From Gammaproteobacteria bacterium (GTDB taxonomy: Bacteria > Pseudomonadota > Gammaproteobacteria > GCA-001735895), in NCBI GenBank assembly GCA_030066085.1, contig JASJCI010000037.1:1-64000 (forward strand): a stretch of DNA of 64,000 nucleotides, given 5' to 3'. Below the pieces are notes generated by a model. That model was not told the DNA's origin. It was given only the letters and a program-made list of their open reading frames with translations, and ran no database searches. The translations under genes were made by a program, and so were the position numbers. Numbering within the stretch: position 1 is the first letter of the stretch; the number at the start of each line of letters is the position of its first letter. Below are positions 38,070-41,107 of this stretch, one piece after another.

Positions 38070-38444
38070 ATGATATTCGACGACAACGAGCAGCAGGAAC
38101 TCAAGACAAGCGGGCTGCAGGAACTCAGGAAATACACCTACACGGTCTACATCCTGCAGGCCGTCGGCTTCGTGATCCCGCTGACCGCCGTGATCGGGGT
38201 GATCGTCAACTATGTCAAGGCCGACGACACCCGCGGAACCTGGCTGGAATCGCACTTCGACTGGCAGAAGGCCACCTTCTGGTGGGGCCTGCTGTGGCTC
38301 GCGCTCGGCACTGGACTTACGCTGGTGTTAATCGGCTACCTGGTGCTGCCCGTAGTAACCATATGGCTGATCTACCGTATCGCGCGAGGCTGGATATGCC
38401 TCGTCGACGGCAAGGAAATGTACCTCGACCGCAGTGGAGAATGA
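38070..38444 (+). CDS. DUF4870-like small membrane protein
   Basis: A 124-residue protein with a charged N-terminus and three hydrophobic segments (about residues 25-50, 68-90 and 85-108). The pattern of a Tyr-rich first helix, a short loop with [11 protein letters not shown], and an [15 protein letters not shown] tail resembles the DUF4870 family; function unknown. It is 3 nt after ligA and 1 nt before msrB, so it is part of the same transcription unit. Confidence 0.7.
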
Positions 38445-38445
38445 C

Positions 38446-38838
38446 GTGAACGAAGAACTGAAGTGGCGTGACAAGCTGACTCCCGAGGAGTACCGAATCT
38501 GTCGCGAAAAAGGCACCGAACCGCCTTTCAGCGGCGCGTATTACAACAACCATGCCGACGGTCGTTACCGCTGCAAGTGCTGCGGCGAGGTGTTGTTCGA
38601 GTCAGTCAACAAGTACGATTCGGGCTCCGGCTGGCCATCCTTCGACCGCCCGGCGGCGGATGGCGTGATTCGACGCGAGGAAGACCTGAGTCTCGGCATG
38701 CGCCGGGTCGAGATTATGTGCGAACACTGCGGCAGCCATCTCGGTCACGTGTTCGAAGACGGCCCGCGCGAGACCACCGGGGAGCGTTACTGCATCAACT
38801 CGCTGTCGCTCGATTTCGAGGCCGACAAGCATGGATGA
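38446..38838 (+). CDS. msrB: Peptide-methionine (R)-S-oxide reductase MsrB
   Basis: A 130-residue repair enzyme that reduces methionine R-sulfoxide. Two zinc-binding CxxC pairs (CKCCGE, CEHCGS), the [10 protein letters not shown] substrate loop, the GHVFEDGP segment and the catalytic cysteine in RYCINSLSL are intact. GTG 38446 has GGAG 6 nt upstream and gives the usual [15 protein letters not shown] opening; a GTG at 38434 overlaps the previous gene. The 3-prime end overlaps cyaY by 8 nt. Confidence 0.95.
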
Positions 38839-39154
38839 GTCGACCTTCGACCGGCTCGCGGACGAAACCCTGGTAGCGATCGAGGAAGCGATCGACGAGT
38901 CCGGCGCGGATATCGACTACGACAGTGCCGGCGGTATCCTGACCCTCGAATTCGAAAACGGCAGCCAGATCATCATCAACAAGCAGGCCCCGCTGACCCA
39001 GATATGGGTTGCCGCGCGCTCCGGCGGTTTCCATTTTGATTACGATGACGACGCCGCTTGCTGGCGCCTGCAGGGCAGCGGCGAAGAATTGTTTGCCTGC
39101 CTCGGTCGTTACTGCAGCGAACAGGCCGGCGAAGCCGTCGAGCTACTGCCCTGA
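38831..39154 (+). CDS. cyaY: Frataxin-like iron-sulfur assembly regulator CyaY
   Basis: A 107-residue bacterial frataxin that binds iron and modulates IscS-dependent Fe-S cluster assembly. The acidic first helix ([23 protein letters not shown]) and the beta-sheet motif [26 protein letters not shown] match CyaY closely. Translation is coupled to msrB by an 8-nt overlap. In other gammaproteobacteria cyaY is often near dapF or lysA; the msrB neighbour here hints at an oxidative-damage context. Confidence 0.94.
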
Positions 39155-39319: not shown

Positions 39320-39841
39320 ATGGATCGACGCAGACTGTTACAGCGCCTGCTGCGCATTTTCGGCATCGTTTTCTTGCTCGGGCTGGTCAGCGTTCTGCTC
39401 GATTTCGCGATCGATTTCAGGCCGCGAACCATCCAGGAATCCTATCGCTTCACCGTGCCGGAACTCACGCTCGATGAACCGGTCATTTTGCGCCGGGACA
39501 ATCTCAGCTTGGTGGTAATCCGCCGTTCGAGCGCGATCCTGGATGCGATCGCGGACGACCGGGAGCGGCCGCAGGACCCGGAATCCTCTGCCAGCCGGCA
39601 GCCGGCCGATGTCGATCGCCGCCACCGCGCGCGCGACGGTGAATTTTTCGTCGCCTACGCCATGGGTACCGATTTCGGTTGTCCGCTGGCGGTCGATGCC
39701 CAGACCTTGCGCGAGGTCTGCAGTAAAGCGCGCTACGATTTTGCCGGGCGCGCGCTGCGCGGCGAGCGCGAGTTTCCGAATCTGACCGTACCGGATTATA
39801 ATTTCAGCCCGGACTACCGGGTCCTGACCGTTTTTCCCTGA
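39320..39841 (+). CDS. Membrane-anchored degenerate Rieske-fold protein (no 2Fe-2S ligands)
   Basis: A 173-residue protein with an N-terminal membrane helix (about residues 11-30) and an extracytoplasmic domain. The C-terminal half aligns with the cluster-binding part of Rieske proteins: GTDFGCPL (116-123) replaces CTHLGC, and EVCSKARYDFAGR (132-144) replaces CPCHGSxYDxAGR, followed by the expected NLTVPDYNF. All four cluster ligands are lost (to G116, D118, E132 and S135), yet both disulfide cysteines remain (C121, C134). The function is unknown; it may be a structural or disulfide-bearing remnant. ATG 39320 is chosen; yajQ starts 10 nt after its stop. Confidence 0.65.
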   Translation: MDRRRLLQRLLRIFGIVFLLGLVSVLLDFAIDFRPRTIQESYRFTVPELTLDEPVILRRDNLSLVVIRRSSAILDAIADDRERPQDPESSASRQPADVDRRHRARDGEFFVAYAMGTDFGCPLAVDAQTLREVCSKARYDFAGRALRGEREFPNLTVPDYNFSPDYRVLTVFP

Positions 39842-39851
39842 GCCAGAAACC

Positions 39852-40334
39852 ATGCCATCGTTCGACGTCGTTTCCGAAGTAGATCACCATGAATTGCGCA
39901 ATGCCATCGACCAGGCTAATCGCGAGATCGGCACGCGTTACGACTTCAAGGGCGCAAACGCGCGCATCGAGCAGCAGGAGACCGAGCTCAGTCTCGAGGC
40001 CGAAGTCGAATTCCAGCTGCAGCAAATGATCCCGATCCTGAAGGAAAAGATGTCGAAACGCGGTATCGACGTCGAATGTCTCGAGTTCGGCGACGTGGTC
40101 GAAATGAACCGGCGGGCACGCCAGCCGGTACGTGTGCGCGAGGGTCTCGATCGCGATCTCGCGCGCAAGATGGTCAAGCTGGTCAAGGACAGTCGGCTCA
40201 AGGTGCAGGCCGCGATCCAGGGCGAGCAACTGCGCGTGACCGGCAAGAAGCGCGATGATCTGCAGGCGGTCATGCAGATACTGCGCGAAGCCGGCCTCGG
40301 CATACCCCTGCAGTTCCAGAACTTCCGCGACTAG
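39852..40334 (+). CDS. yajQ: YajQ-family nucleotide-binding protein
   Basis: A 160-residue cytoplasmic protein of the UPF0234 family. The MPSFDVVSEVDHHELRNAIDQA opening (residues 1-22), the TRYDFKGANARIE segment, the VRVREGLDRDLARKMVKLVKDS segment and RVTGKKRDDLQAVMQ are diagnostic. Members bind nucleic acids, and in xanthomonads and pseudomonads YajQ binds cyclic di-GMP, which would fit the GGDEF/PilZ genes at the start of the window. It is a short distance from the Rieske-like gene and probably co-transcribed with it. Confidence 0.95.
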   Translation: MPSFDVVSEVDHHELRNAIDQANREIGTRYDFKGANARIEQQETELSLEAEVEFQLQQMIPILKEKMSKRGIDVECLEFGDVVEMNRRARQPVRVREGLDRDLARKMVKLVKDSRLKVQAAIQGEQLRVTGKKRDDLQAVMQILREAGLGIPLQFQNFRD

Positions 40335-40435: not shown

Positions 40436-41107
40436 TCAGGCGGCCAGGTAGACATCGAAGCGGACGGTTTTTTCCCGGTAAACGATGTCCGGGACGCGGC
40501 TGTCGAGGCGTGGCGCGCGTGCCGGTCGCTTGACCACGACGCGATAGCGCGCGCGCGTCAGCGCCAGCTCGAAAAATCGTTCGATATCGAAATTGGTGGT
40601 GATCGCCTGCAGTATCTGCATCGACTTGCCGGGCTTGGCGCCGGAACTGCGCGCGGGAAACATCGGGTCGAGGTAGATACAGTCGAAGACCCGCTCCGCT
40701 TGCTCGACGAGAAATTGGTACGCGTCCCCGCGCTGCAGCCGCAGCCTCGAAACCAGTTCGGTCTGACCGCTCGTCGCCAGCGTTGCGAGGGCCAGTTGCA
40801 GCACGTCGTGTATCTGCCGTTGTCGTTCGAGCATGGTGACGGTGAGACCGTGCGCGGCGAGGGTGAGGCTGTCGCCACCCCAGCCGGCGGTGGCGTCGAG
40901 CACGCTTTGAATGTGGCGCTTGCGGTCGCGGCAGGCCCTGAGCAGCGCCTGCCCCGGCTGGCGCGCGCGGCGCCGCAGTTCGCCGCTGACAAAACTATGG
41001 CGAAAGGCGAGGCCGGACTGGCGATGGGCGATACGGCAACCTTCGGCATCCGGGATAACCACCAGCGGCTCGTGCGGGGCTGCCGCGGTCGGACGCGATG
41101 ACGACAT
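40436..41107 (-). CDS. rsmJ: 16S rRNA (guanine(1516)-N(2))-methyltransferase RsmJ
   Basis: A 223-residue SAM-dependent methyltransferase modifying G1516 of 16S rRNA. The SAM motif is VLDATAGWGGDSLTLAAHG, the adenine-binding loop is at MLERQRQIHDVL and the catalytic-site motif is CIYLDPMFPAR. These match RsmJ (YhiQ). The start codon overlaps the slyX stop by one base, so the two are translationally coupled. Confidence 0.93.
   Translation of the reverse strand: MSSSRPTAAAPHEPLVVIPDAEGCRIAHRQSGLAFRHSFVSGELRRRARQPGQALLRACRDRKRHIQSVLDATAGWGGDSLTLAAHGLTVTMLERQRQIHDVLQLALATLATSGQTELVSRLRLQRGDAYQFLVEQAERVFDCIYLDPMFPARSSGAKPGKSMQILQAITTNFDIERFFELALTRARYRVVVKRPARAPRLDSRVPDIVYREKTVRFDVYLAA

Follow-up and report, generated by a model that had tools for sequence, protein, structure and literature searches.

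The gene at positions 39320..39841 (+ strand) of the window, the whole stretch of 64,000 nucleotides analysed here, encodes what profile and structure comparisons indicate to be a paralogue of PetA, the Rieske subunit of cytochrome bc1, that has lost all the ligands of the iron-sulfur cluster. It belongs to a family that is widespread in Gammaproteobacteria and is not the product of one gene's decay. The best explanation of its role, to which we assign a probability of about 0.5, is that of a non-redox, disulfide-stapled accessory of cytochrome bc1, involved in the assembly, stability or regulation of the complex. The dispersal of the family and its tie to bc1 were missed by the initial annotation of the window. 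To our knowledge, few dedicated assembly factors are known for bacterial bc1, and a widespread PetA-derived family lost along with the complex represents a direct, testable candidate for such a factor.

The protein and its predicted fold

The reading frame comprises 173 amino acids plus the stop codon and is backed by homologues and by dN/dS in relatives. An N-terminal transmembrane helix (aa 3-30; 39326..39409, +) is predicted in the structure model. Box I reads GTDFGC (aa 116-121; 39665..39682, +), with the ligand Cys replaced by Gly and the ligand His by Asp, and box II reads EVCSKA (aa 132-137; 39713..39730, +), with the ligand Cys replaced by Glu and the ligand His by Ser. All four cluster ligands are substituted in this protein, and both disulfide cysteines, C121 and C134, are retained. 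The alignments also show the conserved motifs YDFAGR (aa 139-144; 39734..39751, +), located 3' of box II, and NLTVPDYNF (aa 154-162; 39779..39805, +), directly before which the protein lacks PetA's Pro loop (PAP). The boxes, the YDFAGR and NLTVP motifs and the two cysteines had been described in the initial annotation, and its reading frame, residues and coordinates all proved accurate. An ordinary petA-petB pair with intact CTHLGC and CPCHGS boxes is located on another contig of the same genome. Going by its sequence, the cluster-less paralogue cannot carry electrons as PetA does.

The NCBIfam model of the proteobacterial bc1 Rieske protein, TIGR01416, matches the window protein with an E-value of 3.6e-8 and 33.6 bits, below its cut-off of 97.4 bits. 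The phmmer search related the protein to the Rieske subunit of Pseudomonas bc1 (PDB 8smr, 8smr_C) with an E-value of 7.4e-8. These matches identify the window protein as a homologue of PetA. In Pfam, no family was found for it at E up to 10, and the 13 distant members gave no Rieske-like Pfam match at E up to 1, where the filters of HMMER can hide weak matches. In the alignment, C121 falls on the second Cys of CTHLGC and C134 on that of CPCHGS. In Thermochromatium tepidum PetA, the disulfide links the cysteines at these positions, Cys129 and Cys154 (PMC10492824); C121 and C134 thus match the disulfide pair of PetA.

The AlphaFold (AF2) model, the input of which was restricted to family members (alignment A4, 28 sequences), had a mean pLDDT of 80.6 and a pTM of 0.68, with weak confidence at the hinge and at residues ~80-100. 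The best Foldseek match of the model was 8smr_C (E 1.7e-10). VIA-align superimposed it on 8smr_Z with a Z-score of 16.9 and an rmsd of 5.3 over 169 aligned residues, on the immature PetA 7yr9 with a Z-score of 16.0 and an rmsd of 2.5 Å over 129 residues, and on 1rie with a Z-score of 14.1. The Rieske fold proposed earlier was thus checked against a structure model, the best matches of which are bc1 Rieske structures, and the soluble head is predicted to take a PetA-like Rieske fold.

The small subunit of nitrite reductase, NirD, also has a Rieske fold without a cluster, and the family is therefore not categorically new. Following its general description, NirD is a soluble cytoplasmic protein of another Rieske branch, unlike the membrane-anchored family considered here, and serves as a precedent for a ligand-free Rieske fold. 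The structure 7yr9 represents the Zn-bound immature PetA of T. tepidum (PMC10492824), which has the Rieske fold and the disulfide without the cluster, so the fold can stand cluster-free. This is a stage of real PetA with all ligands present, whereas in the family the ligands are permanently gone.

Conservation, origin and selection

Of the 143 relatives searched, most of those in the genus have an orthologue; others were found in the sister genus, and single ones in two more distant families. Eleven further distant members came from a profile search covering 369 genomes of the class. In a scan of contigs, the single protein gave no match and the broad alignment A1 contained no sufficiently conserved stretch; the genus alignment A2 was usable. 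The A5 profile was unselective, as true PetA scores equally well, and family membership was assigned by motif. Close homologues are encoded in named public genomes: that of the Olavius algarvensis Gamma 3 endosymbiont is one, and numerous MAGs of marine or sediment origin are others. No description of a family of cluster-less PetA paralogues was found in the open-access literature searched; the initial annotation, too, knew of no described function for such a protein.

For residue counts, 83 homologues, which represent nine or more other families of the class, were aligned with 21 true PetA proteins. The pattern noted earlier in the window protein, a kept cysteine pair and lost ligands, holds throughout the alignment: both equivalents of C121 and C134 are present in 83/83 members, no ligand is retained in 81/83, and the remaining two retain only the His of box I, so that no member has more than one. 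All four ligands and both cysteines occur in 21/21 PetA rows by construction, the rows having been chosen by that motif. The members with the box I His are L026 (GTHLGC) and L031 (GTHMGC), in which the other three ligands are absent. The Pro loop is lost as well; its two Pro positions are occupied by Pro in 5 and 2 family members vs 21/21 and 20/21 PetA proteins.

The invariance of the two cysteines despite the loss of the cluster might be explained by a thiol-disulfide function, in which a redox-active C121-C134 pair would pass periplasmic reducing or oxidising equivalents or sense redox conditions. Such a function, raised in the initial annotation, seems unlikely and gained no positive evidence. 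The pair is already a structural disulfide in PetA, and its retention, being ancestral, demands no new role; there is neither a CXXC motif nor a thioredoxin fold, other cysteines in the soluble part are sporadic across the family, and the loss of the gene together with bc1, described below, would be left unexplained. Five members from the sister genus (L035, L034, L030, L033 and L032) carry, towards their C-terminal end, a second pair of cysteines in a YNFCPDYSC-type motif, which may form an extra disulfide.

The ligand Cys position of box I is never Cys (0/83) and is Gly in 77 members, and the position of the box I His is Asp in 56/83 and His in only 2. In box II, the ligand Cys position is Asp or Glu in 81/83 and never Cys (0/83), and the ligand His position is never His (0/83). 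These acidic replacements (D118, E132 and neighbours in the window protein) could be taken as ligands of a different metal or cofactor, but the other two positions vary (G/S/R/A/D and R/G/S/D/A), which leaves no complete set of ligands conserved, and we consider binding of this kind very unlikely.

The comparison with PetA (UQCRFS1; TIGR01416) shows which Rieske features survive without a cluster. The homologous head with its predicted fold, the disulfide pair, the YDxAGR and NLxxP motifs and the N-terminal anchor are common to both; the ligands and the Pro loop are missing from the family, and the Tat motif is not conserved. The family also differs by forming a separate clade, by its location outside petABC and, in the case of the window protein, by a score of 33.6 bits against the required 97.4. 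Two distant members exceed the TIGR01416 cut-off with 106.1 and 107 bits; members of the family can consequently be misnamed as the iron-sulfur subunit of complex III.

In the maximum-likelihood tree, which had no outgroup and whose root is therefore not fixed, all PetA proteins were divided from all cluster-less proteins by one branch (100/100). Removal of both boxes, the N-terminus and the Pro loop left the split in place (SH-aLRT 99). Convergence of the ligand columns was considered as a source of the split and rejected, since the split survives removal of the ligand boxes. The synteny with yajQ and rsmJ in other families is in line with a single origin. The phylogeny fits one old duplication of PetA, not repeated decay.

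The dN/dS ratio is 0.19-0.39 between close relatives and 0-0.06 for the adjoining yajQ. These estimates indicate that the gene is under purifying selection, weaker than that on yajQ. Together with the one old origin, they bear out the earlier statement that the loss of the ligands was selective and not random decay. The absence of every ligand is what would be expected of a decaying, functionless duplicate of petA, but the dN/dS values, the cysteine pair in 83/83 members, the one old origin and the intact frames in many families refute functionless decay as a general account, and we regard it as hardly credible.

Occurrence with cytochrome bc1

Among the 31 genomes of the genus, 27 carry the gene and four do not (G003, G006, G024 and G027). 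Cytochrome bc1 is present in 26 of the 27 carriers; the remaining one, G021 (88% complete), has no found PetA or sspA. An apparent absence of bc1 in G025 and G037 was rejected as an assembly gap; petC is present beside sspA in both, and they were counted as bc1-positive. G006 is 62% complete and the locus is absent from it. In G003 and G027, cyaY and yajQ are neighbours separated by a short gap in which the gene is missing, and in G024 yajQ is present without the gene; the gene was lost with cyaY and yajQ still intact.

G003 has lost bc1 by a deletion, which left the first residues of petA joined to the end of petC, with Nif3- and SspA-type genes on either side. In G024, petC is missing from its place next to sspA and petB from the whole genome; in G027, neither petB nor the sspA locus was found. 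G003 and G024 belong to separate clades of the genus tree, which indicates at least two independent losses of bc1 accompanied by loss of the gene. The association of the gene with bc1 in the genus has a Fisher p of 0.0026, uncorrected for kinship; the tree-based pair/sign test had too few pairs to reach significance, the co-loss being based on two verified independent events. Loss of the oxidase was considered as the driver of gene loss and rejected. Both G003 and G024 retain the cbb3 oxidase (ccoN), so the gene tracks bc1 and not the oxidase.

The remnant in G003 (L162:2884-3153; G003:C258:5883-6152, minus strand) is the result of an in-frame deletion, after which ~60 residues from the N-terminus of petA run into the C-terminal anchor of petC. 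The bc1 operon has lost petB and most of its other sequence, and an open frame of 89 residues is left.

A similar distribution was found beyond the genus. In the f146 order, to which one of the distant members belongs, 48 genomes were searched and about 40 have the gene; 38 carriers have a PetA match, and two, G794 (77% complete) and G810 (74% complete), are without a found PetA. Each of the 16 carriers in the class sample has at least one further Rieske-type match (p 0.028); these matches were taken as PetA, though not every one was read. The reverse combination, bc1 without the gene, occurs in G031, in G033, in six genomes of the f146 order with PetA only and in most of the class, and the product is therefore not a core subunit of bc1. 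The gene was never located inside the petABC operon among the loci seen. As carriers nearly always possess PetA and bc1 often occurs without the gene, it seems that the gene requires bc1 and bc1 does not require the gene. The link to bc1 is correlative. Since the gene is lost together with complex III, its product probably assists the complex in a role other than electron transfer.

Export, proposed role and gene neighbourhood

The protein was earlier supposed to be membrane-anchored and periplasmic, and the model agrees with this, predicting one N-terminal helix (aa 3-30) and a periplasmic head. PetA is a substrate of the Tat system and needs it for export (PMC3623810). The Tat-like motif, scored as [RK]R-x-phi-phi, is present in 20/21 PetA proteins and in 8/34 members of the family (Fisher p 1.3e-7, with no correction for kinship), and its strict form, RRxF[LIV], in 14/21 vs 0/34. 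The anchor helix of the family is more hydrophobic (mean 2.28-2.37 vs 1.91 in PetA) and contains fewer Gly and Ala residues. The loss of the motif from most members and the more hydrophobic helix make export via Sec likely, which fits a protein requiring no cluster insertion in the cytoplasm. The disappearance of the Tat motif along with the cluster also fits the view that it is cofactor insertion that makes Tat export necessary.

The proposed mechanism begins with one old gene duplication in Gammaproteobacteria that would have given rise to the cluster-less paralogue of PetA. With no cofactor to be accommodated by cytoplasmic folding, the paralogue would have lost PetA's Tat motif in most members, and its insertion would probably proceed by Sec/YidC. 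A single transmembrane helix at the N-terminus would anchor it in the inner membrane, with the predicted Rieske-fold head facing the periplasm and held together by a putative ancestral inter-loop disulfide, C121-C134; an acidic residue would occupy the position of the former cluster Cys of box II. The PetA-like helix and head would bind cytochrome b/c1 or immature PetA, and the accessory would act as an escort, a placeholder or a regulator of bc1. Binding to PetA is conceivable, because immature T. tepidum PetA is a dimer in solution and one model of its interface includes the disulfide patch (PMC10492824). The absence of the features that face cytochrome b in PetA, the Pro loop and the His ligands, counts against a bc1 accessory.

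Mitochondria have the Rieske escort factors Bcs1 and Mzm1, which belong to protein families unrelated to the cluster-less paralogue and share with it only the proposed role, the delivery of the Rieske protein into bc1; the bc1 role of the family is itself a proposal. Bcs1 is covered in PMC12219900. More tentatively, many Gammaproteobacteria may possess a dedicated non-catalytic, Rieske-shaped partner of bc1 that replaces PetA, competes with it or acts as its escort; bacterial bc1 would then have an assembly or control factor spread across the lineage and derived from a duplicated and defused catalytic subunit.

In the window, the gene follows cyaY (frataxin; 38831..39154, +; PF01491, E 1.2e-29) after a gap of ~166 bp and is followed by yajQ (39852..40334, +; PF04461, E 1e-63), 10 bp past the stop codon, and by an rsmJ-type methyltransferase gene (40436..41107, -; PF04445, E 4.6e-42), a recurrent neighbour in distant families. 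The usual order in the genus is ligA-(membrane protein)-msrB-cyaY-gene-yajQ-rsmJ. The tightest neighbour there is yajQ, which begins 3-15 bp past the stop codon of the gene across the genus. In distant families, rsmJ and/or yajQ adjoin the gene in 9/13 loci and cyaY is near it in 6/13, frequently on the opposite strand. The frataxin neighbour emphasised in the initial annotation does recur in these six distant loci, but it is not the defining context, as yajQ and rsmJ recur more widely; cyaY belongs to a block of genes conserved since long ago, and the link to frataxin is no special clue. In three loci of one family (f52), sohB- and folD-type genes, named by eye from the sequence, adjoin the gene instead, and in G059 neither these nor yajQ, rsmJ or cyaY were found nearby.

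The short distance to yajQ in the genus and the recurrence of yajQ and/or rsmJ in several families, with cyaY near in many, might suggest that the protein is a partner of YajQ, RsmJ or CyaY and not of bc1. The probability of this appears low: the three proteins are cytoplasmic and the product of the gene is predicted to be periplasmic, none of the three genes was found nearby in G059 and the f52 group, and cyaY and yajQ persist where the gene has been lost. The neighbourhood includes two small proteins without Pfam matches. One, a predicted membrane protein encoded between ligA and msrB (38070-38444), is conserved in the genus and the sister genus. The other is a conserved protein encoded, in several of the distant families, between the gene and cyaY or yajQ at L083:5533-6000, and also at L078, L079, L080 and L084.
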